IMG/VR virus record: IMGVR_UViG_3300049477_000009
Span: 1-26,191 of that record
Length of the DNA: 26,191 nucleotides
Source of the DNA: a virus
Strand: one strand, 5' to 3'
The notes beneath the pieces are model-generated. The model had not been told where the DNA came from. It saw nothing but the letters and a program-made list of their open reading frames with translations, and made no database searches. A program made the position numbers and the translations under genes. Positions 2,351-21,531 of the stretch are shown here, in pieces (position 1 is the stretch's first letter; each line of letters opens with the position of its first letter).

Positions 2351-2834
2351 CCTGCTAGATTCCGATCAGCGCATCATGGCAGCGACCACGGTGCGCGACG
2401 GTGTCCTGTCCTTCAACTTCGGAGACGGGCAGCCCCCTCTCCGAGGTACGTTGGACGGGGTGCTGAATAGTAAACAGATCATACAGTGGTGCAACGCTGT
2501 AAGGAGTACGTATCGTGCGAGGCAAGACAGCAAAGAGAATCAGGCGGCTAGCCCGGCACCTGTTGTTCAAGAGGCACATGGCCAAGTCCATGCCGCTCCC
2601 GCAGTCAGCAGCGGAGGCGGACTTCCAGTTGAAGAAGGTGTCGAAGGAGTTAAAGCGGCGATGGTTGCAGGAATCGAATCCTCACTCGCTCACTTGGGTC
2701 GACGAGAAGTGGCGCTACTTGAGGAGCGCGGTGACCACGTCCTCGCTCTAGAGAGACTGGACGTAGAGTTAGCCTCACTGGCAGAGACTACTCGGTACTA
2801 CCAGAAGTTGAAGGAGGCTGTATGCGAAACGTAA
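2337..2834 (+). CDS. Hypothetical protein with C-terminal coiled coil
   Basis: 165 residues from ATG 2337, preceded by a weak AGAGAG. It overlaps the phosphoesterase by 14 bases and the sulfotransferase-like gene by 13. Three parts can be seen: a folded-looking N-terminal segment (about 1-60), a low-complexity Ala, Val, Gly and Pro stretch (about 68-105), and a charged helical C-terminus (about 110-163) likely to form a coiled coil. I do not recognise the family. The low-complexity stretch coincides with a nested ORF in another frame that has its own strong ribosome binding site (see 2515-2751). One of the two frames may therefore be constrained by the other. Confidence 0.6.
   Translation: MDASDLLDSDQRIMAATTVRDGVLSFNFGDGQPPLRGTLDGVLNSKQIIQWCNAVRSTYRARQDSKENQAASPAPVVQEAHGQVHAAPAVSSGGGLPVEEGVEGVKAAMVAGIESSLAHLGRREVALLEERGDHVLALERLDVELASLAETTRYYQKLKEAVCET
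2515..2751 (+). CDS. Candidate overprinted small basic protein nested in the 2337-2834 gene
   Basis: 78 residues from GTG 2515 in a different frame, lying entirely inside 2337-2834. AAGGAG at 2501-2506 is eight bases upstream of the GTG, the best-placed Shine-Dalgarno in this part of the operon. The product is strongly basic. It opens MRGKTAKRIRRLAR, a pattern I have seen at the start of small phage proteins, and ends in W-rich, helical-looking sequence. The host frame is low complexity over much of the same bases, as expected if this inner frame is the constrained one. It may still be a chance ORF. Conservation of this frame in relatives would decide. Confidence 0.5.
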   Translation: MRGKTAKRIRRLARHLLFKRHMAKSMPLPQSAAEADFQLKKVSKELKRRWLQESNPHSLTWVDEKWRYLRSAVTTSSL

Positions 2835-3325
2835 TCCTATCCCTGCCCCGCTGTGGTAGCGCGTGGCTTGCCGCCTACTTCGGCTACCTCCACGACCCGC
2901 TGATGAACATGACATGGGACAGTGTCAAGAACTACAGCATCGTGGATACGGGGGCGGCTACAGACCCAGAGCAGGCGTTCTTACAGTATGGTGCAGACCG
3001 CACCGTGGTGCTTACCCGTAACGTGGACCGGGTGGTGGCCTCTCTTCGCAGGCTAGACTTCCCCGTAGGCCGAGAGTTAGTTGAGGCGTGGGACGCCCGT
3101 CTTAGGGAGTGCGCTAGAAAGTACGGGCTGCCCTTGTTTGACTACGGGGACCTGTTCGGCAGACACGGCTACATGGAGGAGGCCGCGCGATTAGCGGACA
3201 GACTTGGCGAGGACTGGGACTCAGTTCGGTGGACCAACCAGAGGGAGGTCAACGTGCAGCACAACATTACGGAGTACAGCCGACCCGGCTATGACCAGTA
3301 CTTGCGGTGGCTCCGTGCATCCTAG
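2822..3325 (+). CDS. Sulfotransferase-like P-loop protein
   Basis: 167 residues from ATG 2822 with AAGGAGG five bases upstream. Two motifs match PAPS-dependent sulfotransferases. An N-terminal ILSLPRCGSAWL (5-16) resembles the 5'-phosphosulfate loop (R/K-x-G-[ST]-x-W-L). R66-N67...S74, just after a strand reading TVVLT, matches the 3'-phosphate binding motif including the R-to-S spacing of eight. Family members move sulfate from PAPS to sugars, lipids or proteins. At 167 residues it is shorter than most (about 250-300), so it may be a minimal form or have lost activity. It sits in the plus-strand operon, not among structural genes. A role in modifying host envelope or nucleotide derivatives is only speculation. 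Confidence 0.6.
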   Translation: MRNVILSLPRCGSAWLAAYFGYLHDPLMNMTWDSVKNYSIVDTGAATDPEQAFLQYGADRTVVLTRNVDRVVASLRRLDFPVGRELVEAWDARLRECARKYGLPLFDYGDLFGRHGYMEEAARLADRLGEDWDSVRWTNQREVNVQHNITEYSRPGYDQYLRWLRAS

Positions 3326-3506
3326 GTTCGCGGAGCGCATAGCCAAGCAGCTCTATATACGCAAGTGGAAGATGGGGTGGAAGCCCCCGGCCCTTGCCAA
3401 GTGGCTGCAGGAGCGGTTCCCAACCATGACTACCGAAGATGGGCAGCAGGTGAAGGACAACATCCCACCGGGGTTCCACGGCACGCAGCCTCCCACAAAA
3501 GCATAG
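3315..3506 (+). CDS. Small hypothetical protein, last gene of the plus-strand operon
   Basis: 63 residues from a GTG at 3315 that overlaps the preceding gene by 11 bases. No strong Shine-Dalgarno is visible, so expression probably depends on translation of the upstream gene. An internal ATG at 3372 is possible, but the intervening residues look like genuine helical protein. The product is basic and Trp-rich (KWKMGW, AKWLQERFP), with a Pro-rich tail. A small helical nucleic-acid-binding fold is conceivable, but no family is recognised. Eleven bases after its stop begins the large palindrome taken as the operon terminator. Confidence 0.55.
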   Translation: MHPRFAERIAKQLYIRKWKMGWKPPALAKWLQERFPTMTTEDGQQVKDNIPPGFHGTQPPTKA

Positions 3507-3516
3507 GCAAAGAAAT

Positions 3517-3548
3517 ACCCCCTACCTTATACGTATAAGGTAGGGGGT
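3517..3548. terminator. Perfect 32-bp palindrome at convergent junction; probable bidirectional terminator
   Basis: The left arm is ACCCCCTACCTTATAC (3517-3532) and the right arm is its exact reverse complement (3533-3548). As RNA it would form a stem of about 14 bp with a four-base loop, identical from either strand. It lies in the 54-base gap between the last plus-strand gene (stop at 3506) and the last minus-strand gene (stop at 3561-3563), where a shared terminator is expected. Pyrimidine-rich DNA follows on the plus side (TTGCTTGT), and TTTCTTTG follows when read from the minus strand; neither is a strong U-tract. Its central 16 bp recur exactly at 15481-15496. Confidence 0.75.
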
Positions 3549-3560
3549 TGCTTGTATCTG

Positions 3561-4004
3561 CTAGCAGCCGTAGCCTTTAGTCCACGAGTCGTCGTACAGT
3601 GTGCGTTCCCAGTTGTGATGTACGATCCGAGCTACCTTCTCGCTCTGGCAGTCGCTGACTGCACTACCGTAGAAGGCCCACAGTACGTAGTGGACAGTCT
3701 CGTGTACTACCACGGTACGAGTCCATACTGGGTCTAGGGTCGGGTTAATCAGGATGTACGGCTCTCCATCGTACACGAGTCCGTAGAGTTCCCACCCCGG
3801 AGGAGCAAGGTCCAGAACGGCCTTAGTTAGTATAACCACCGGCTTGTCAATCTTCCGGCAGTTCACCCTGTCGTACCCCAGCCCTTTGAGCTGTGAGCAT
3901 AGATAGTTCCACTCCTCTTTAGTCACGCCGTTAGACGGCGGCGTGGCAGTGACCGACGCAGTCGAGAAGACGCAGAGCAGAACGACAACAAGGGCTTTCC
4001 ACAC
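3561..4004 (-). CDS. Exported HExxH putative zinc metalloprotease
   Basis: 147 residues. Residues 1-20 form a classic signal peptide: Lys at position 3, a hydrophobic core, and VTA before a likely signal peptidase I cut. The Cys at 11 is not in a lipobox. HETVH at 101-105 is an HExxH zinc motif within a hydrophobic VVV-x-x-x-x-H helix, and E122 about 17 residues later could be the third ligand (gluzincin type). Cys36, 49, 119 and 147 could form disulfides, in keeping with export to the periplasm. It is the last late gene, 11 bases after the SPFH gene and downstream of holin and endolysin. It could cleave envelope proteins at lysis or in superinfection control; this is inference. Confidence 0.68.
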   Translation of the reverse strand: MWKALVVVLLCVFSTASVTATPPSNGVTKEEWNYLCSQLKGLGYDRVNCRKIDKPVVILTKAVLDLAPPGWELYGLVYDGEPYILINPTLDPVWTRTVVVHETVHYVLWAFYGSAVSDCQSEKVARIVHHNWERTLYDDSWTKGYGC

Positions 4005-4015
4005 GGTCGTGATTC

Positions 4016-4528
4016 CTAGCTAGAGTGTAGACGATAGGTACGGGCCAGAGTCAGGTCGGACAACTGGACCTTTTGGATTTCAATGCCAAAGCGCCACGCC
4101 TGCTTCCTGCAGGCCTTCGTAAGTACATCCGAGAAGTCCTCGTGTTGTACTTCTTCCCAAGTGTGGGAGGCTACTAGCGCACCAATGGCTCCATAACTGG
4201 AGTCAATGCACGCATCATCTACTCCCTCAACTTCCAGTAACGCCTTGCGCACGTCCCGTATCTGGGCCGTCACAACACCCGCTACAACCACAGCCTTCCC
4301 ATCCTTAGTAGTCAAGGACTGGGACCCGAGATTGATCGTCCTCGGTACGACGTTATCGGCCATCACCCTGTCCACTTGGAACGGTATGATCCAGTGGAAT
4401 CCCGGTTCTAGGTCCCGTACGGGCCTGCCAAACCGCAGGACTACTCCCCGCTCAAACTCGTCAATGACTACGAAGGGCACGAAGAACGATGCCCACTGCA
4501 ACAGTACATCAATGAGTTTGTCGAACAT
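4016..4528 (-). CDS. SPFH/Band 7 (stomatin/HflC-like) membrane protein
   Basis: 170 residues. An N-terminal hydrophobic segment (about 5-22) is followed by the signature start of the SPFH domain: V-x-DEFERGVVLRFGR (about 21-35), then L-x-PGFHWIIPF and a VVPRTINL-x-x-QSLTTKDGKAV strand pattern. Bacterial members (HflK, HflC, QmcA) form membrane-associated rings and, in HflKC, regulate FtsH. This protein is much shorter than those (usually 250-400) and stops shortly after the SPFH domain, lacking the long C-terminal helices. Its ATG shares a base with the holin stop (TAATG), placing it in the lysis operon. A role in controlling host membrane proteases or holin timing is possible but unproven. 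Confidence 0.83.
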   Translation of the reverse strand: MFDKLIDVLLQWASFFVPFVVIDEFERGVVLRFGRPVRDLEPGFHWIIPFQVDRVMADNVVPRTINLGSQSLTTKDGKAVVVAGVVTAQIRDVRKALLEVEGVDDACIDSSYGAIGALVASHTWEEVQHEDFSDVLTKACRKQAWRFGIEIQKVQLSDLTLARTYRLHSS

Positions 4529-4941: not shown

Positions 4942-5357
4942 TTGTCCTCCTCCATCATACGGGACAGGCGCACTGCCCGCGTCTTGACTTGTCGTGCCCA
5001 CAGGGACAGCAGCATGTTCTCTGCCGCTTCCTTGTACCGTCCTTCCTTGACCATCGCCAAGGTGCGGACGAAGCCGAGCAGGCGTGGAACTCCCATGTTG
5101 AAGGCCATGTCCAGTAGCACGGCGTACCGTACCTCTGACAGGTCCTTCGCCCACGGTAGTGCCGTATCCAACTCCCGCTTGTGCTCTGCGATGTCCCATT
5201 CTAGAAGTGCATCTATGATGTGCTCCGGGAGCTTCCCTCCCCTGCGGTCATCGATCAGATGGCCCACCCCTATGGTCAAGTACCCCAGAGAGTCCTTGTA
5301 GGCGTGAGCTACCCGGCCCTCATGGTGGGCGAGAAGCTTCTTAATCCCCCCAGTCAT
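4926..5357 (-). CDS. Endolysin, T4-type lysozyme (GH24 muramidase)
   Basis: 143 residues, near the 164 of T4 lysozyme. The catalytic triad spacing is exact: E13, D22 and T28 in the segment HEGRVAHAYKDSLGYLTIGVGH correspond to E11, D20 and T26 of T4 lysozyme. The later LLDMAFNMGVPRLLGF segment is the usual family helix. It hydrolyses the MurNAc-GlcNAc bond of peptidoglycan. There is no signal peptide or SAR segment, so it must be released by the adjacent holin. The gene overlaps the upstream virion-protein gene by 17 bases and the holin by 16. Confidence 0.93.
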   Translation of the reverse strand: MTGGIKKLLAHHEGRVAHAYKDSLGYLTIGVGHLIDDRRGGKLPEHIIDALLEWDIAEHKRELDTALPWAKDLSEVRYAVLLDMAFNMGVPRLLGFVRTLAMVKEGRYKEAAENMLLSLWARQVKTRAVRLSRMMEEDKWPEL

Positions 5358-7302
5358 CCCACTCCCCTACGTTCTGGTACTGGCTCGCCAGTTCCCCACG
5401 AATCATAGCCTCGGACAGTGCCTTACCTGACATGCCAGAAGTGATGGGGTCAGTCGATAGGCCAGCAAATTCCCTGAGCATTTCCTTGTGGGACGTAGCA
5501 TCCCGCTTGAGCGCCTTGTTCAAGAGCTTCTCGGCCAGCCGCACGCGGAAGCCTGCCTGTGCAATCTCGTGGCCAACGGCGTGACGGACGAGACCCGCGA
5601 GAGCCACGTTCACAAATCCGATAGGCTCGCCCACCTTTGTATGCTCCGCTGTGCGAGCTGCGTGCTGCATCGTCACTAGGTCCTTGTCGTTCAGACCCAT
5701 AGACTTAATCAGCTCCGGGTTCTCCTTGCGGAACCTCCGGATGTTGTTCGCAACGGCGCGGTAGTGGCCCTGCGTAGGCTCCGGATTGTCGAGGAGCGGC
5801 TTCATCAGGTCGTACATTACCGACCCGTGAACCGCCATCTTCACCCGAGGAGAGTCTTTCGTCAACATCATGATGCTGTCATAGATGCGACTAGACTGCT
5901 TGCTCCCGAGCATCGAGCTGGTACCGATGATGGTACTGGCCAGCTTCTGTGGAGTCATGGCCGGGTCCGTGATGATATCCCGGACAGCCTTGTGCTCGTT
6001 CCAGTTCTCCTTGTACGCCCCATACAGGTCCTGCGCGTTCCGCCATGCTTCCCAAGGAGCATCAATGCCCTTGGCGGCGTCGGCCTTGAACTGAGCGTCG
6101 AGCATCTCATCCAGACGAGACCCGATCCGGGACACGGCAGCTCCATCGCTCGTGCCGCGCAAGTCCTTAGCCCGCTTGATGAGCTTCTCTCGGACGGCCT
6201 GTAGCTCCTTGAGTTCTTGCCTCTTGATGAGTATGCCTTTGGGGGCCTGTCTCGGGAGGAGAGTGTTCTTGCCGAGCTTCGTGGTTATCTGGGTGTTGAG
6301 GCCCATGAGGTCCTGCAGGGAGGCCTGCACGGAGGACGACCGGATGTCGAACCCGTCCCCAGACAACTCCTCAGCTAACTGCCGAGCAGTACCCTTAGCC
6401 CAAGATACATCCGTGAAGTGCTGCTGATTACGGAAATCGTTCCACGCCTGATTCACCTTGCGCTTCTCGGCAAGTTTGGCAGCATTCAGCTCCCGCCCAA
6501 CCTCGCCGAATCCTGCGCCGCGAGTATCTGCGGACTCACCCTCAGCTACCCGACGGACAGACTCGTGGATGCGGTCCCTACGCAGCTCGATGCCTAGTTT
6601 CTTGGCATTAGCCTGCAGGTCTGCAGCCACCTTGTCAATGCTCGCCTGCTGCGCCGCACGCTCAACTTGGTTGGCGTGGACGGTACCGAGAGTACTCTTG
6701 GCCCACGTCTCCTTGAGTCCTGCCTTTACGCCCGACTTGATTCCTGCCTGTACCCCGGCCTTGACCGATCCCGGCCCGAACAGGAGCAGGCCTGCATTGG
6801 CTGTGGTCTCTAGTGCCGTGGCGACGAGGGGGTTACCCCGAGCCATGGTCATCGACGTGTCCTTCACGACCTCGTCGACCTTCTCCATAGCCGGAGCAAC
6901 GGTCTCGAACAGGGCCTTGCCGTAGTCCGACTTCGGGGACCACGTAAGGAAGTCCGACACGCTCTTAACGACGTCCGATGCCTTGCCCGCCCCCACGAAG
7001 GGGAGCGAGGCGAGACCCACGAGGCCGCCAACGGACGCACCGACCGCGCCTGTAGCAAGTGTAGCAGCGGCGTCTGCCGCCCCGACTGCGACCTTGCCCT
7101 TGCGGCTCATAGGGTCGAACTCAATCTGCGGCTTGTAGTCGGCGGGCTGTTCTACCGGAGCCTCGGCAGGGGCAGCCTGCGCCTGCTGGGATTCCGCCCA
7201 GAGACGCTGTGCCTGCGCGATAACGGTAGCATCGTCGGCTCCGTCCGGTCCTTCTACCGAGATGGTAGTACCGTCTGGAGCTTGGACGTCATAGATTGCC
7301 AT
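5341..7302 (-). CDS. Large virion protein, probable internal/ejection protein
   Basis: 653 residues. The N-terminus (MAIYDVQAPDGTTISVEGPD) followed by a short helical segment is a pattern often found in podovirus internal virion proteins. An Ala/Gly/Val-rich hydrophobic region (about 70-110) and another around 165-195 could insert into membrane during DNA ejection. The remaining 400 residues are Lys/Arg-rich and helical. It lies immediately upstream of the endolysin, and its ATG shares a base with the stop of the preceding virion gene. I infer an ejection role from size, composition and position; there is no definitive motif, and no transglycosylase signature was seen. Confidence 0.62.
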   Translation of the reverse strand: MAIYDVQAPDGTTISVEGPDGADDATVIAQAQRLWAESQQAQAAPAEAPVEQPADYKPQIEFDPMSRKGKVAVGAADAAATLATGAVGASVGGLVGLASLPFVGAGKASDVVKSVSDFLTWSPKSDYGKALFETVAPAMEKVDEVVKDTSMTMARGNPLVATALETTANAGLLLFGPGSVKAGVQAGIKSGVKAGLKETWAKSTLGTVHANQVERAAQQASIDKVAADLQANAKKLGIELRRDRIHESVRRVAEGESADTRGAGFGEVGRELNAAKLAEKRKVNQAWNDFRNQQHFTDVSWAKGTARQLAEELSGDGFDIRSSSVQASLQDLMGLNTQITTKLGKNTLLPRQAPKGILIKRQELKELQAVREKLIKRAKDLRGTSDGAAVSRIGSRLDEMLDAQFKADAAKGIDAPWEAWRNAQDLYGAYKENWNEHKAVRDIITDPAMTPQKLASTIIGTSSMLGSKQSSRIYDSIMMLTKDSPRVKMAVHGSVMYDLMKPLLDNPEPTQGHYRAVANNIRRFRKENPELIKSMGLNDKDLVTMQHAARTAEHTKVGEPIGFVNVALAGLVRHAVGHEIAQAGFRVRLAEKLLNKALKRDATSHKEMLREFAGLSTDPITSGMSGKALSEAMIRGELASQYQNVGEWDDWGD

Positions 7303-11960: not shown

Positions 11961-13516
11961 TAGGAGAGTCGTCCAATCTTGGAGAAGAGCGTGAGCTTCT
12001 GGATAGAGAGCGAGGAGTTGTTTATCAAACAGGAGATTCCGAGTTGGATATACTGCCCCGTGCCGCTTGCCGGAACTCGGCCCTCACGTAGCATTACGCC
12101 GCCACCAAACTCTGAGAGTCCCCACTCGGCGAGTCCCCACTCACCTCCCGACGATGTGCCAGTGAAGTTCTTGGACATGGTACGGAAGGTACTGGAGAAG
12201 TCGAACGCCCACTTGAAGTTGACGTCGATGGTCGAGTCGGAGAAGAACACACCCTCGTACCGCTTAGGTATCAAGGTGAACCCCTGCTGCGTCAGGTCGA
12301 TCCAGCCCGAGTTGTACTCGAAGGAGTAGGTTGAGGTATCGTCCAGTGCGCCAGTATACTGGCCCAGTTCTCCTACGCTGCCCTTGCGGCTCATGAGGAG
12401 AACGCCGCTACGGCGGACGATCATTGCGGTCGGCACTAGGGTCCACGTTCCGGTACACCGGGCGGAGCCATCGTCTAGCTTGCCGCGGGTATCGAAGGAG
12501 AACGCAATGCCCGATTCCTCAGTACCCGTCGAGGGCAGGGAAAGGAGGAAAACCCTGTCCCTTGGCGAGTACGAGGATCGGAGTAGGGTGAGGTCGGCTG
12601 ACGCGACGTAGGTCCCAAGGAAGTCCTGCACGTTCAGCGAGAGGTTGCTGAGTGGGTTGGACTTCTCTTGGATCACGCGGCCCAAACTCTGCAGGCCGTT
12701 CGCTGAGAGGAACCAAAGGTCCCCGTCGACTTCCTGCACGGAGTCGCGGGCTATGCAGCCCGTACCTCGGACGATATCGACCACGTACATCTGGGTTGGG
12801 TCGACGCCTAAGACGCTACCCGTACCGTCAGCATACATGACGATGTTGTTCTTGCCGAAGATCACGAGCATACCGTTGTAGGCAGCCATCGCCGTGATCT
12901 GGTCGTTGCCCGGCCACACGTTCCAGAGGTCGATCACTCCGGAGTCTGCTGACGTCCAGTCCGTACCATCCAGAAGGGCGGAGTAATCGAGGGTGTGACC
13001 ATCCGTGTTGCTGATCCACAGGCGACCAAACGCGGACAGGCCAACTCCGCCCGTGGGGGCGTTGACGTCGGCTACCGCTGTGAAGTTACCCGTGCCTGTG
13101 TAGTAGCAGGGGGCTTCGCCCGCCATGACGCCATAGATGCTATTGTTGAAGTTGAGGAACTGCCAGTTGCCGCCAGTGAAAGTGAGGGCACCAGTGACGG
13201 CGGTCCACGAGGCACCGTCGTTCGTGCTCTTGTACAGCGCCGTGGCTGTGGAGCAGACAAGCTCAGTGGTGGCATCAGACTTTACGAACTCCTCGGCCTG
13301 CACGATGGTAGCGCCGATAGCAGATGTGGTAACAGAGTTCCACCCATTGCGGGCTGCAACACGACCACTGTCATCGATGACGGCATTGAGAAGGACCGTA
13401 GCCCACTCGGGGCCAAGGGTCGATCCCGACTGCTGTTTGTTCAATCCCTTGAAGCCGGGAGTCACTAGCGGAATATGCAGTAACTCGGCTCCGCCATGTC
13501 GTCTCGGCTGCGGCAT
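11960..13516 (-). CDS. Tail nozzle-like protein (tail tubular B / stabilization protein type)
   Basis: 518 residues of mainly beta sequence without signal peptide or transmembrane helix. The early part has FKGLNKQQSGSTLGPEWATVLLNAVIDDSGRV, typical of podovirus nozzle or stabilization proteins (a statement that the product describes the start of a beta-propeller). Repeated strands with W and F at the turns follow, and the last 60 residues form a beta sandwich-like end. Such proteins plug the bottom of the short tail, below the adaptor. It follows the adaptor gene directly, matching the usual gene order adaptor-nozzle. The exact family (T7 gp12 or P22 gp10 type) is not settled from sequence alone. 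Confidence 0.72.
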   Translation of the reverse strand: MPQPRRHGGAELLHIPLVTPGFKGLNKQQSGSTLGPEWATVLLNAVIDDSGRVAARNGWNSVTTSAIGATIVQAEEFVKSDATTELVCSTATALYKSTNDGASWTAVTGALTFTGGNWQFLNFNNSIYGVMAGEAPCYYTGTGNFTAVADVNAPTGGVGLSAFGRLWISNTDGHTLDYSALLDGTDWTSADSGVIDLWNVWPGNDQITAMAAYNGMLVIFGKNNIVMYADGTGSVLGVDPTQMYVVDIVRGTGCIARDSVQEVDGDLWFLSANGLQSLGRVIQEKSNPLSNLSLNVQDFLGTYVASADLTLLRSSYSPRDRVFLLSLPSTGTEESGIAFSFDTRGKLDDGSARCTGTWTLVPTAMIVRRSGVLLMSRKGSVGELGQYTGALDDTSTYSFEYNSGWIDLTQQGFTLIPKRYEGVFFSDSTIDVNFKWAFDFSSTFRTMSKNFTGTSSGGEWGLAEWGLSEFGGGVMLREGRVPASGTGQYIQLGISCLINNSSLSIQKLTLFSKIGRLS

Positions 13517-14428: not shown

Positions 14429-15043
14429 TTATGCAATCTTTTCGACGACTAACGTCATGCCAGCCATACAGGTGGTCACCGCTGTCGTCTCGGACCGAAA
14501 ACGCAGTTGCGCTGTTCCGGTGTTACTAGTCGTGATCAGCAGTCCGTTACCTACGACTGGGTAGGTCGAGGTGCCCGGCATACCTGAGGAAACACCAACG
14601 CTCGCATCGTCCGCTATACTGTGTCCACCTGACAGGGTGCCAGTGTTGGCAAGTTGGTGGTGGAACTGTACGTTAATGGACGTCACGGCGCTGGACAGAT
14701 CGAACTGGAACCCGCAGCCGGTAGTTGCCGCGGTAGGGGCCACTCGGCCCATAAACCAGATGCGGTACTTGCTGTTCGCCTCGTAGGTGAATACTAGTCC
14801 GGTCAGTGGGACCGGGGTCGTGTTCGCTCCCGTGGCTTGGTCACTCGCCAACGTGGCTACGAGTGTGTAGCTATAGCCCGGACCGGCAGGACCGGTGGGA
14901 CCAGTTGCACCGGTCGTGCCCGTAGACCCCGTATTGCCGGTCGGTCCAGTCGGACCGGTGGGTCCGGTGGGCCCAGCCGGGCCAGTAGGCCCCGTCGGCC
15001 CTGCGGCACCTGCCGAGCCTACAGCCGCGTACCGTCTGTGCAT
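14429..15043 (-). CDS. Collagen-like virion protein with C-terminal beta domain
   Basis: 204 residues. Residues 9-56 hold 16 uninterrupted G-x-y triplets, mostly GPT and GPA, which should form a trimeric collagen-like rod. The C-terminal 145 residues ([16 protein letters not shown]... to VEKIA) are beta-rich with Thr, Gly and Ser, as in trimeric head or tail knob domains. Phage collagen-like proteins are known as fibres or capsid decorations. The N-terminal piece (MHRRYAAV) is short, so virion attachment may lie there or be mediated by a partner. It lies between the ParB-like gene and the small membrane protein, in the capsid-to-tail transition. Confidence 0.8.
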
Positions 15044-15046
15044 CGG

Positions 15047-15475
15047 CTACTCCGGCCAATAGGGGGTTAGGGTGGTGGGATAGGTCTTGGATTCGGGGAG
15101 CGTGGCAAAGCTGAAAGCTAGCCCATCGCTGCGCAACCGTGCCCGGCCATCACGGAAGAAAGACTGGACTTCGCCCAAGGTGGCCAGTAGGACACCATTC
15201 ACTCCAGTGGGTGTTGCGCCAGTGACGATGGCAGGAACTTCCTTCCATCCTATCTCGACGAGCGCCTTGAGGCGATTGAGACCAGCAGCCATCCACATGT
15301 CGTGGGGCGGACGGTTCTCAATGAACAGTGGATTGACGAGACCGTTCGCACGGATATCCTCAACCAACGCAGGAAACCACGAGTTGTCGTCCGAGAGGGA
15401 CTTGACTGGGGGTCTCCAGTTAATCAGGTGTACCGGCACGTGCCGACAGAAGTAGACAGGGTACGGTAATTTCAT
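15047..15475 (-). CDS. ParB/Srx-fold nuclease-like domain protein
   Basis: 142 residues. A ParB box I-like stretch (LVEDIRANGLVNPLFIE, 37-53) is followed by M-x-AGLNRLKAL with G65, R68 and A71 in the ParB box II pattern GxxRxxA, and by the W-x-EVPAIV strand. This fold binds CTP or ATP and occurs in plasmid ParB, sulfiredoxin and many phage proteins. No HTH or C-terminal dimer domain is evident, so it is a lone N-terminal domain, shorter than true ParB (about 280 or more). Its Shine-Dalgarno (AAGG) lies inside the palindrome at 15479-15498, five bases from the ATG. Function in the structural module is unknown. Confidence 0.75.
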   Translation of the reverse strand: MKLPYPVYFCRHVPVHLINWRPPVKSLSDDNSWFPALVEDIRANGLVNPLFIENRPPHDMWMAAGLNRLKALVEIGWKEVPAIVTGATPTGVNGVLLATLGEVQSFFRDGRARLRSDGLAFSFATLPESKTYPTTLTPYWPE

Positions 15476-15478
15476 GTA

Positions 15479-15498
15479 AGCCTTATACGTATAAGGCT
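15479..15498. promoter_or_regulatory. 20-bp palindrome with 16-bp core shared with 3525-3540
   Basis: AGCCTTATACGTATAAGGCT is a perfect palindrome immediately before the ParB-like gene (three bases from its ATG). The core CCTTATACGTATAAGG (15481-15496) is identical to the centre of the terminator palindrome at 3517-3548. The flanking bases differ but pair in both places (T-A steps there, G-C here). In the minus-strand RNA it would form a hairpin that hides the AAGG Shine-Dalgarno of the ParB-like gene. It could be a second terminator hairpin, an RNA control element, or a protein-binding site; sequence alone does not decide. Confidence 0.6.
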
Positions 15499-15499
15499 A

Positions 15500-15515
15500 G
15501 CCCCCCGAAGGGGGC
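15500..15515. terminator. GC-rich UUCG-tetraloop hairpin downstream of the capsid genes
   Basis: On the minus strand, GCCCCC-TTCG-GGGGGC forms a six-pair GC stem closed by a C(UUCG)G loop, an unusually stable arrangement. It lies 14 bases after the stop of the capsid decoration gene and 25 bases before the ParB-like gene. This is the position used by the T7 terminator after the capsid gene to reduce downstream transcription. The T-tract, however (TTTTTT at 15521-15526), follows the hairpin on the plus strand; on the minus strand an A-tract precedes it. Strong termination is therefore predicted for plus-direction RNA and is less sure for late transcripts. Confidence 0.6.
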
Positions 15516-15528
15516 GTCCCTTTTTTGG

Positions 15529-15894
15529 TTAAGGCCAGACGTTCGTGGCGCGCTTGAGCACAACGCCGTAGAACGTGGGGTTCGCAGCAAACGAAGTGTC
15601 CGCATCCGTGCCTTCAACATTGAAGGTCGTGACCGTCACAACGCCCGCAGCAGTAACCGCCGCCGTCACGATCTGCGCGTTGTTGTCAACGCCAGCCGTG
15701 ATAAGAACGAAGTCACCCAGAGAAGCTCCCGGAACCGAGACGTCGCACTGACCCGCAACCTGCGCAGCCAGAGTGTCGTCATCGCCCGCAAAGCTGAACG
15801 GAATAACCTCTGAGAACAACGACTGGAACTGATGCCTGCCCGAGGCTCGCGCCTTGTTAGAGGTATCAGTGATAGCCGTGATGTTAGTCGACAT
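15529..15894 (-). CDS. Head decoration / capsid-associated protein
   Basis: 121 residues directly downstream of the major capsid gene. It starts MSTNITAITDTSNKARASGRHQF and continues as an alternating beta sequence rich in Ala, Val, Thr and Gly, without enzymatic motifs, signal peptide or membrane segment. Small beta proteins in this place are commonly capsid decoration proteins or head-stabilising factors. The ribosome site TAGGAAACA with ATG nearby resembles that of the scaffold gene, suggesting high expression. A GC-rich hairpin lies between it and the capsid gene. The role is inferred from position, size and composition. Confidence 0.66.
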   Translation of the reverse strand: MSTNITAITDTSNKARASGRHQFQSLFSEVIPFSFAGDDDTLAAQVAGQCDVSVPGASLGDFVLITAGVDNNAQIVTAAVTAAGVVTVTTFNVEGTDADTSFAANPTFYGVVLKRATNVWP

Positions 15895-15916: not shown

Positions 15917-15938
15917 GTCCCCTCCCGGAGGAGGGGAC
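15917..15938 (-). promoter_or_regulatory. Intergenic hairpin between capsid and decoration genes
   Basis: On the minus strand, GTCCCCTCC-TCCG-GGAGGGGAC forms a nine-pair stem with a C(UCCG)G loop of the stable UNCG class. It fills the 50-base gap between the major capsid stop and the decoration start. Only CCCCCTTACAC follows it, so it lacks a U-tract and is unlikely to be a strong intrinsic terminator. A role in mRNA stability, RNase processing or partial attenuation, setting capsid-to-decoration ratios, is more likely. Confidence 0.55.
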
Positions 15939-15944
15939 GTTAAG

Positions 15945-16937
15945 TTACGCCGGGACGACGATAGCGATACCAGCCTCAGGACGCAGAACGCCCTTGCCGA
16001 TCAAGAGGTCAGCCGTGAACAGGTCCGAGAGGTACTCCTGCTTGTACTGGCTCTGCGAACGGGGGCGCATCTGCTCGATCAGCACGAGGGCATCCTTCTG
16101 GAACAGAAGGGCCGCGCGCTGGTCGACAGCCGCACCGCCGTCAGCCACGGTCGGGCAGTTGGTCGACACATACAGCTCGACGCCGTACAGGTTACCAATG
16201 CGACCGTTCTTGATGGCGTCACCCGAACCGACGAACGCCTGCTCCGTGAACCGGCTGATGCCGAGGAGGTTACGCTTTTCCACCGGGGGGATGACGAGGA
16301 CGCGACCGACGCTAGACACGTCGTTGTCGTCCATCTTCTGCAGCATGATACGGAGACCTTCGTCCGTGATCGTAGCCGCGTTACCAGCGTTGGCATTCGC
16401 CGCAGCCGACCACGCAACCAGAGCACCAGCGTTGGGGGTACCGATCACAGCCTTGCTGTAGGCCGTACCTTCCACCGTCGGGGACGCATCCGCACCCGCA
16501 AGCTTCGCGCCTTCGGCGTGGAGCAGCGAGTCGACCTTCTTCGCCAGAGCGTAGCCAGCGTCGTCCGTGTAGAAGCGACGGAGGGCATCCGAGGCCTGCA
16601 CGCCAACGATGTCTTCGATCAGACGGCTGTACTCCCAGTGCTGGTCGATGTAGAAAGCCTTCGTGCTTTCCTGATTCGAGATCAGCGTGACCATCGTCTC
16701 CGCAGCCTTCTGCGAAGCAGCGCCACGGACCGGCTTCGGGATGTGGATCGTGTCGCCCTTCTTGCCCACGAAGTTCATCGTGTTGACAAGCTGCGGCATG
16801 ACCAGATTCGCCTTGTACGTGGCGATAATCTCGTCCGACCAGAGTTCCGGAACGAATGCACTGTTAGACCGAGTGCGCGAGGCTGCCGTCACTTCCGTGA
16901 GGGTGATATGTGCGGTTGAACCGCCAAGACCTGCCAT
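15945..16937 (-). CDS. Major capsid protein (T7-like, HK97 fold)
   Basis: 330 residues, close to 345 for T7 gp10A. The sequence has the usual landmarks of podovirus capsid proteins: F-VPELWSDEIIATYKANLVMPQLVNT near 28-53, GDTIHIPKP at about 61-69, a helical stretch ALAKKVDSLLHAEGAKL, and the C-terminal P-domain-like part ending GIAIVVPA. It forms the icosahedral shell around the scaffold. It follows the scaffold gene by 25 bases, with AAAGG nine bases before the ATG. No programmed frameshift extension (T7 10B type) is obvious before the stop, as the next 50 bases hold a hairpin. Confidence 0.9.
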   Translation of the reverse strand: MAGLGGSTAHITLTEVTAASRTRSNSAFVPELWSDEIIATYKANLVMPQLVNTMNFVGKKGDTIHIPKPVRGAASQKAAETMVTLISNQESTKAFYIDQHWEYSRLIEDIVGVQASDALRRFYTDDAGYALAKKVDSLLHAEGAKLAGADASPTVEGTAYSKAVIGTPNAGALVAWSAAANANAGNAATITDEGLRIMLQKMDDNDVSSVGRVLVIPPVEKRNLLGISRFTEQAFVGSGDAIKNGRIGNLYGVELYVSTNCPTVADGGAAVDQRAALLFQKDALVLIEQMRPRSQSQYKQEYLSDLFTADLLIGKGVLRPEAGIAIVVPA

Positions 16938-18331: not shown

Positions 18332-20254
18332 TTACTTAGCCGTAGTTTGCTTACGTGCCTTCACCATCTCGATCTGGTTCCTCTGGGCTGCAATGTCGTT
18401 CTGGCGCTCTGCCATGTGCGCCTTACGTGCGCCAATCGCTGCGTTCGCTGCCTGAATGTCGACCTTGTCATCCTCCAAGTCTGCCAGTACCATCTCCCTA
18501 TTGGCCTTCGCCATAGATAGCTTCGCGCTTGCTTCGGCTTCTGCAGCCTTGGCATTCTCCACTCGGAGCTGCGCCTCCATCAGAGCCATCTGGATTTCCT
18601 TCATCTTCTTCTGCTCAGCCTCCTGCTCAGGAGTAGGCGGCTGGTTCATCGCCTCGATGGCCTTCTTGAGTTCGGCCTTCTCTGAGGAAGCCGTGTTCGA
18701 GAAGATGGCCTTGAGGATCAGACCGTGTGCAGGAGACTCGGGAGGGGTGAAGCCTAGCAACTGCGTGAGTTGCGCCATCTCCACTTCCTTAGCCATGATC
18801 CCCATGCTGGCCTTCACAAGGAACTTCATGTCCTTGGGATACCGCTCGGGGTCGAACTGCATGTAGCGCCACGTTGACCTTCGGATCAACGGGCCGAGGA
18901 ACTGGCGTTCGATGTTCTGCATGGTCCGCTTGGAACGCTTGAGCATCCCGGACTGCATCATCGACATGCCACCAGCAGTCTCATTCCTGCTGTTGATGCC
19001 GAGCGGGGTGGCCGAGTCCATAGACCCGGTGCCCTGCTGCACCATTCGTTCCATGTCTCCCGACTGCTGGAAGGTCAGAGCGAGGCCTGCGGCGTTGAAG
19101 CCGATAGGCTCGATGACTTCCGACGGGCGACCACGGGTGAAGAACACCTTGCCGGGACGCACGCGCATGTCAGGATTACGAGGCATACGCCCCATGTCTG
19201 CCCCAAGCATAGGAGCAGTCATCAGTGCGAGGGCATCAATGCGTGCCCTAACCTCTGAGTCGAGGGCCTTCTGCGGGTTGTAGCCCTTCTCGGCTACGCC
19301 TCTACCCCAGAACTCACCCGGCACGGTGTCGTGCTGGTAGGCCACAATCGGGCGGTCCTTCATGGTGAAGGGGGAGGCAGTCGCACGAAGCACGAGGGCT
19401 TCGTTGGCTACGGTGACGATGGACTCAACCAGCTCGTCCCCCTCCTTGTCCTCAGCACCGTCGACCCATCGGGCCGGGACCATGCCGTAGAACTCGGTGA
19501 CTAGAACACCCTCATCCTGCGAATCTACCGTCGAGGACGACCCAGTACCAGTGGAGTCGCCGCGCCTACCATTGAATCCTTTGATCTCACCCTTGGCGTA
19601 GACTCCTGCATCCTGCTTCGCCTTGATGGTGTGCAGGGGCTTGATGAACTCGTGGGCGCAGAACAGCGCCTCATCGATGGACGTCGCTGACGGATCGATG
19701 ACGAATTCATCGGGGCGGACGGGGTAGACAGCTACAAGGACTCGATCATCATTGACCGGCTTGCCGTCCTCACCCATCTGCTTGACGTCTTCAAGGTGGA
19801 CGTTGATCTTGGCAATGCCCGTACCGTAGATCGCACCGAGCAGGAACACCTGCGCGATGGAGTCCGGGACCTGTGCCAGTTCGAAATCCTCAAGGAGTTG
19901 GTCGCGGTATACAACCGCGTCGTCCTTCTGCTCGTCGGCGATATCGTCGGAGATATCGAACCACGCCGTGCGGGAGAACACACTCTCCTCGATCTCAGCA
20001 ACGGCCATTTCGATGGCCTGTTGGAGAGCGGGGGCGATCAGACGCGAGCGTTCGGAGTTGTTCGACGCATCTTCCGCGGCCCAGAACCCCCGCCAAAGGC
20101 GGGTATACTCGCTCCAACGAGCGCCGTACTTCTGGTCGCGGACATCCCGTCCCCGCTTGACCTTGTTGACTACGTAGCCAAGAAGGGCGGCCTTGGGAGT
20201 GGTGGCAGCCTTGTCAGACTCCGACCCACTGTTGAAGCTGCCATTGTTATCCAA
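18332..20254 (-). CDS. Portal protein (head-tail connector)
   Basis: 640 residues starting at a TTG, positions 20252-20254, chosen because AGGA is eight bases upstream and no ATG occurs before the conserved N-terminus. The stem and clip regions include SRLIAPALQQAIEMAVAEIEESVF, an early helix-strand core typical of podovirus portals, and PIVAYQHDTVPGEFWGRGVAEK. A long C-terminal coiled coil (about 540-635), rich in Ala, Glu, Lys and Gln, likely forms the barrel or crown. Portals form a dodecamer ring for DNA entry and exit. It follows the terminase gene by two bases, the normal pairing. Confidence 0.88.
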   Translation of the reverse strand: MDNNGSFNSGSESDKAATTPKAALLGYVVNKVKRGRDVRDQKYGARWSEYTRLWRGFWAAEDASNNSERSRLIAPALQQAIEMAVAEIEESVFSRTAWFDISDDIADEQKDDAVVYRDQLLEDFELAQVPDSIAQVFLLGAIYGTGIAKINVHLEDVKQMGEDGKPVNDDRVLVAVYPVRPDEFVIDPSATSIDEALFCAHEFIKPLHTIKAKQDAGVYAKGEIKGFNGRRGDSTGTGSSSTVDSQDEGVLVTEFYGMVPARWVDGAEDKEGDELVESIVTVANEALVLRATASPFTMKDRPIVAYQHDTVPGEFWGRGVAEKGYNPQKALDSEVRARIDALALMTAPMLGADMGRMPRNPDMRVRPGKVFFTRGRPSEVIEPIGFNAAGLALTFQQSGDMERMVQQGTGSMDSATPLGINSRNETAGGMSMMQSGMLKRSKRTMQNIERQFLGPLIRRSTWRYMQFDPERYPKDMKFLVKASMGIMAKEVEMAQLTQLLGFTPPESPAHGLILKAIFSNTASSEKAELKKAIEAMNQPPTPEQEAEQKKMKEIQMALMEAQLRVENAKAAEAEASAKLSMAKANREMVLADLEDDKVDIQAANAAIGARKAHMAERQNDIAAQRNQIEMVKARKQTTAK

Positions 20255-20256
20255 GA

Positions 20257-21531
20257 CTAGTATCCTGCGTAAGCGTCAAGTGGCTTCCAGTTATCAATCT
20301 GATCCGGCCCGTCAAACCACGGATCAGCGAGCTGATCGATGTAGGCTAGTGCGTCGAGCAAGTCGTCGTGCGACCGAGGGCTGGGGAAGTCTTCTGCCTG
20401 TTCGATGAACTTGGCGTTCCACGACCCCCGCAGGAGCTGGATTCTTCCCTTCTCGGCACGACCCTGCAGCGCCCAAGCGATGCGGTCCGTCTTTCTCTGG
20501 TTACCGTGTGTTAGGTCTTCGACCGTGAAATGCACCCCAAGGCGCATCATCTCATCATTCAAGTAGGGCATGACCGCATTCCGGGCCATACCTCGTTCTA
20601 TCCCGATTCTACTGGGACGATGGTCCCTGTACGACTTCACGATCCGAAGCGCCGTCTCTCGCGTGTCCCACTGGCCACTGATGATATCCGTGACACACCA
20701 TCCCCCTTGGTGGTTGACCACGATAGCAATGGCGTGGTCGTCGAGCCGGGAGAGCTTGCGGCCCCCCTCCGAGGACTCGAAACCTGCCAAGTCGCAGGCC
20801 ACATAGTAGTCACCCGGAGAGGGGATGTTGTCTACAATCGGGAACATGCCCCGTGTGAGGACGATGCCCGATCCACCCTCGAAGGAGGCTTCGTACTCCT
20901 GCTTGAACCGGTCGGTGGCCATGCGGCCCCGCGCTGCCTCGATCTCCCGTATGGGGAGGAAGGGGTTCGTTGCAGAGGCGAAGTGCCACGACTTCCACTC
21001 AGGGTCGTCACCGAGGCCCCTCTGGTACAGCTCGTAGAAGTGGTTCTTGCCGTCGGGGGTACCGATGAACAAGGCCCCGCCCTCTGTCCGAGTAAGGGCC
21101 GGGCTGATAATCAGCTCCCAGACCTCTTCCTTCATGAACGCATACTCGTCCATGACGACGTAGGACAGGCCCACACCACGCAGGGAATCCGGACGGTCGG
21201 ACCCCTTGATGCTGATACGGCGGCCGTTAATCAGCAGCAGCTCGCCCGTGTTCTCCCACTTGTTAGCAATCAGTTCGTGCCCTAGCTCCTTGAGGAGCGG
21301 CCACAGAATCTTCTTGCCTTGATCGAACGTCGGGGCTACGTAATAGACTTCCTCAAGAGAGAGGTCGACCACCACACCATCGCTGCGTACCTTCGAGGTT
21401 TTCGCGGCCTCGATAAACAGGGTGATGGCGGCAAGGTACGACTTGCCAAACCGTCGCCCGGCAGCCACCACTTTGAAGCGAGTGGTATCGTAGAAGATTT
21501 CCGCTTGCTTCGCGTGGAGACTTACTTTCAT
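20257..21531 (-). CDS. Terminase large subunit
   Basis: 424 residues from ATG 21531; an in-frame GTG at 21561 is possible but lies before the conserved start (MKVSLHAKQAEIF). The ATPase shows Walker A AGRRFGKS (24-31), Walker B YVVMDE (124-129) with catalytic E129, and a coupling motif IGTPDG (156-161). The nuclease has D247 (VACDLAG), E312 (IGIERG) and D389-D393 (HDDLLD). It cuts concatemers and pumps DNA into the procapsid through the portal. Small terminase was not found nearby and may lie outside the window. Walker and nuclease motifs make this call firm. Confidence 0.94.
   Translation of the reverse strand: MKVSLHAKQAEIFYDTTRFKVVAAGRRFGKSYLAAITLFIEAAKTSKVRSDGVVVDLSLEEVYYVAPTFDQGKKILWPLLKELGHELIANKWENTGELLLINGRRISIKGSDRPDSLRGVGLSYVVMDEYAFMKEEVWELIISPALTRTEGGALFIGTPDGKNHFYELYQRGLGDDPEWKSWHFASATNPFLPIREIEAARGRMATDRFKQEYEASFEGGSGIVLTRGMFPIVDNIPSPGDYYVACDLAGFESSEGGRKLSRLDDHAIAIVVNHQGGWCVTDIISGQWDTRETALRIVKSYRDHRPSRIGIERGMARNAVMPYLNDEMMRLGVHFTVEDLTHGNQRKTDRIAWALQGRAEKGRIQLLRGSWNAKFIEQAEDFPSPRSHDDLLDALAYIDQLADPWFDGPDQIDNWKPLDAYAGY

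Follow-up and report, generated by a model that had tools for sequence, protein, structure and literature searches.

Two intergenic hairpins of a Saffermanviridae-like podovirus share a 16-bp palindromic tip that most likely belongs to transcription-ending or mRNA-hairpin machinery

Why should one phage carry an identical palindrome both at the point where its two gene blocks converge and directly before the gene of a ParB-like protein, and is it a site for that protein, an operator or a terminator stem? The window, by which we mean the whole 26,191-bp virus sequence analysed here, is probably a genome fragment, and the phage is a Saffermanviridae-like podovirus. Its plus strand gene block, which ends at 3506, converges on a minus strand late block, which ends at 3561 and holds the genes for tail, capsid, scaffold, portal and terminase; the record lacks most of the genome's early half. 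The capsid proteins of Pf-WMP3, Pf-WMP4, A-4L and TR020 (Saffermanviridae) are distant homologues of the one in the window, and in all four the convergent arrangement is annotated as it is here. The closest relative found is L111, which comes from a contig of 32,295 bp and has a capsid 90% and a terminase 87% identical to those of the window. Gene-by-gene scans with three genes near the junction (2822-3325, 3561-4004 and 5341-7302) detected no relatives in viral contigs, although such single-sequence scans overlook some relatives, the L111 homologue of 5341-7302 (66% identity) having been missed. Separately, we observed that the late block encodes an SPFH/Band 7 domain protein (4016-4528), unexpected in a small podovirus, and that a minus strand gene at 14429-15043, with 9-bp periodic DNA repeats at 14861-15031, encodes a collagen-like Gly-X-Y repeat protein which matches phage tail fibre families.

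The palindrome, CCTTATACGTATAAGG, is 16 bp long and occurs as exact copies at 3525-3540 and 15481-15496, just as the original prediction had stated. Both copies are intergenic and identical even in the loop, their flanks differ, and each is the core of a longer perfect palindrome:

3517-3548, no strand assigned: site 1, perfect 32-bp palindrome ACCCCCTACCTTATACGTATAAGGTAGGGGGT with core copy 1 as its tip, a putative bidirectional terminator
15479-15498, minus strand: site 2, perfect 20-bp palindrome AGCCTTATACGTATAAGGCT with core copy 2, its 3' arm containing UAAGG

These are the two longest perfect palindromes of the window. Palindromes of at least 20 bp averaged 0.03 per window across 300 first-order Markov simulations, and none of the simulated windows contained either a 32-bp palindrome or two palindromes with a common 14-bp core; given two palindromes, the chance that their inner 16 bp are identical is about 1e-5 per pair. 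The window holds no third match to the core at up to three mismatches (0.03 expected) and no further occurrence of the half-site CCTTATAC. A 16-mer repeat would by itself be unremarkable, because a second exact one, ATGAGCCGCAAGGGCA, is present in coding DNA at 7095-7110 and 12379-12394, probably by chance; it is the palindromy that is remarkable. The sequence feature is thus real and not a product of chance. Pairing extends beyond the core by eight pairs at site 1 and by only two at site 2. The differing flanks, which stay paired, had been taken as compensating changes under selection; the pairing is present in both copies, but at site 2 it is weak evidence for selection, since chance alone gives two extra pairs with a probability of about 1/16, and at least two were also seen in 3 of 27 unrelated collection loci with the 16-mer (two of these three being one sequence).

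The palindrome of site 1 is centred between the converging stops, starting 10 nt past the plus strand stop at 3506 and 12 nt past the minus strand stop at 3561, which closes the following gene:

3561-4004, minus strand: final gene of the late block, with a HETVH motif and no family match

It is predicted to fold into a 14-pair GC-containing stem-loop, more stable than shuffled sequences on both strands (z of -5.4 on the plus and -5.0 on the minus strand), and is followed by tails, TTGCTTGT on the plus and ATTTCTTT on the minus strand, which are T-rich with short and interrupted T-tracts. A stable GC-containing stem-loop in a post-stop position is what an intrinsic terminator has, and judged from its sequence site 1 looks like a weak bidirectional terminator of this kind between the converging early and late blocks. 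Hairpins of unrelated sequence occupy the junction in Pf-WMP3, Pf-WMP4, A-4L, TR020 and one further contig, L118. In L118, homologues of genes from both sides of the junction converge as they do here, over a span of about 550 bp, and an assembly chimera at this point of the window was accordingly rejected. The L111 contig stops 16 bp past its last gene (20600-20616), approximately where a junction hairpin would lie, and the assembly may have been interrupted by one.

Site 2 stands in a different setting, among the head genes and their hairpins, all on the minus strand and listed here in the direction of transcription:

15945-16937, minus strand: major capsid protein (phrog_267, 2.9e-56; 90% identical in L111)
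15917-15938, minus strand: hairpin GUCCCCUCC/GGAGGGGAC, immediately following the capsid gene
15529-15894, minus strand: gene after the capsid, probably head decoration, from its position and weak post-capsid homologues in relatives
15500-15515, minus strand: GC-rich hairpin, GCCCCC-UUCG-GGGGGC when read as minus strand RNA, immediately upstream of site 2
15047-15475, minus strand: accessory protein of 142 aa whose sole domain match is ParB N-terminal-like (residues 11-90)

The AT-rich palindrome of site 2 comes between the GC-rich UUCG hairpin, which the original prediction did not mention, and the ATG of the ParB-like gene, and is thus the latter of a tandem pair of hairpins that follow the capsid and decoration genes. 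Gene 15529-15894 gave no family match; its weak homologues immediately follow the capsid gene in L015, L020, L033 and others, so its product is probably a head decoration protein. Post-capsid hairpins (stem of at least 6, within 80 nt) were found at 30 of 78 related loci, compared with 4% of shuffles and none of 80 coding controls, and they differ in sequence from 15917-15938. In L111 a similar GC-rich UUCG hairpin follows a 69-aa post-capsid gene, and the equivalent place has neither the AT-rich palindrome nor the ParB-like gene; an L111 palindrome, CTTTGTACGTACAAAG (19098-19113), was rejected as an equivalent site as it lies inside an open reading frame. On the minus strand the 3' arm of site 2 carries UAAGG, the Shine-Dalgarno-like sequence of the next gene, and since this is predicted to be paired (probability about 1.0) the hairpin may damp initiation of the ParB-like gene. 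For want of a U-tract on this strand, where TACATG follows the stem, site 2 does not qualify there as a canonical terminator.

The core was absent from 43 related records searched whole (32 at up to two mismatches in the 16-mer, 11 likewise in the inner 14-mer), and six of the longer ones contained no pair of hairpins with 12 bases in common. No relative keeping both sites was found. Outside the relatives, the 16-mer was present in seven viral contigs, which their flanks sort into two sequence families, and in 20 genome contigs of scattered taxa, the random expectation being roughly 60 in the 257-Gb genome collection; most of these matches lie within long stop-free frames without paired flanks. 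A widespread viral or host motif was therefore rejected, since the 16-mer is rare and scattered and falls mostly within open frames. No known RNA family was matched at gathering threshold.

Taken together, we consider it probable that both copies are the tips of RNA hairpins, one belonging to a junction terminator and the other to tandem post-head hairpins. The palindrome thus most likely belongs to transcription-ending or mRNA-hairpin machinery rather than to a partition-protein site. Site 1 would part the converging early and late blocks as a bidirectional intrinsic terminator, and the tandem hairpins of site 2 would set the abundant mRNA of the head genes apart from the accessory gene downstream, through partial termination or 3'-end protection, with pairing of UAAGG before the ATG damping translation of that gene. 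The identical 16-bp tip would reflect a short palindrome having been copied recently in this lineage. The shared terminator stem offered in the original prediction is supported at site 1 and partly at site 2. Several points count against the RNA-hairpin reading: terminator stems need no identical 16-bp tip including the loop, the T-tracts are short and interrupted at site 1 and missing on the minus strand at site 2, and no relative keeps both sites. It had also been proposed that different palindromes at the same places in relatives, with no shared core, would make a specific site unlikely and leave generic stems; this is largely what the relatives present, but the identity of all 16 bp, loop included, exceeds what generic stems need and may reflect selection on the sequence or recent copying. 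The parts are ordinary (a junction terminator, post-capsid hairpins and a start-site hairpin), and the one element for which they do not account is the common 16-bp tip.

The same tip could instead be a DNA operator at which a dimeric regulator, of the phage or its host, acts in both places, for example by blocking or terminating transcription, much as at mycobacteriophage stoperators; we regard this as unlikely, if worth keeping in view. The 16-bp identity including the centre, the dyad symmetry, the intergenic position of both copies, their differing flanks and the improbability of sharing the tip by chance all speak for it. On the other side, there are just two copies, with no degenerate ones at up to three mismatches in 26 kb, the core is absent from the related records including L111, no candidate binding protein was identified, and the promoter scan gave no sigma-70 match and no promoter-like site overlapping either copy. 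An operator for a phage factor, which had been suggested originally, is possible, its one piece of positive evidence being the 16-bp identity. Its regulator would be encoded in genome sequence outside the record, and because most of the early half is missing and the identity of the copies extends to the loop, we retain a lineage-specific operator as a tentative reading; recent copying of the tip accounts for the observations just as well. That one phage protein recognises the core at both hairpins and so controls both junction read-through and the accessory gene's expression seems to us distinctly unlikely.

We find it very unlikely that the tip was left by a small palindrome, mobile or recombining, that also marks the insertion point of the ParB-like gene: in its favour, L111 lacks both the palindrome and that gene at the same place, but the other side of the gene has no second copy, the homology ends at 16 bp, and no such element was found in the viral or genome collections. 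It is still harder to believe that two unrelated hairpins share their tip by chance, for although the window does contain the other exact 16-mer repeat (7095, 12379), the identity of the inner 16 bp has a chance of about 1e-5 for two given palindromes and 0 of 300 simulated windows reproduced even a common 14-bp core. Bacterial parS is a 16-bp palindrome centred on ACGT, and the core resembles it in length, palindromy and centre and differs in its arms, agreeing by eye at 8 of 16 positions with the consensus and so not fitting it. The ParB N-terminal domain match of the 142-aa protein scores 25.1 bits in Pfam, below the 26.3 cut-off, no relatives of the protein were detected in phage records or viral contigs, and its single-sequence structure prediction (mean pLDDT 43) is too poor to inform. 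We give next to no credence to the proposal that the palindrome is a parS-like site of this neighbour, which its position beside the gene, the ParB N-terminal-like domain and the ACGT-centred 16-bp palindrome had suggested, since no helix-turn-helix (parS-binding) domain was matched, half of the parS positions differ and 12 kb separates site 1 from the gene.

The RNA-hairpin reading gives a simple picture of how an uncultured Saffermanviridae-like phage may insulate its converging blocks as well as its head genes. Were the tip a protein site instead, this would imply a so far undescribed regulator with a late role in infection by phages of this kind. The T7 late terminator T-phi stands after gene 10, and like it the site 2 hairpins follow a capsid gene in a T7-like podovirus, although they lack a coding-strand U-tract and a decoration-like gene intervenes. 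The start-associated sequences of Cluster K mycobacteriophages are reportedly short repeats, partly with an inverted repeat, before start codons; site 2 is likewise a short repeated sequence close to a start codon, whereas here just one of the two copies precedes a gene. Mycobacteriophage stoperators (PMC9283540) are also short sites repeated within a phage genome, but they are many, asymmetric and bound by a known repressor, while the window has two palindromes and no known protein. A further parallel concerns the junction: in Pseudomonas phage tf a rho-independent bidirectional terminator was predicted between converging blocks (PMC3517423). The hairpins of tf, Pf-WMP3, Pf-WMP4, A-4L and TR020 have other sequences and, in those examined, no 16-bp tip common to a second hairpin, but all of them, like site 1, stand between two converging phage gene blocks.
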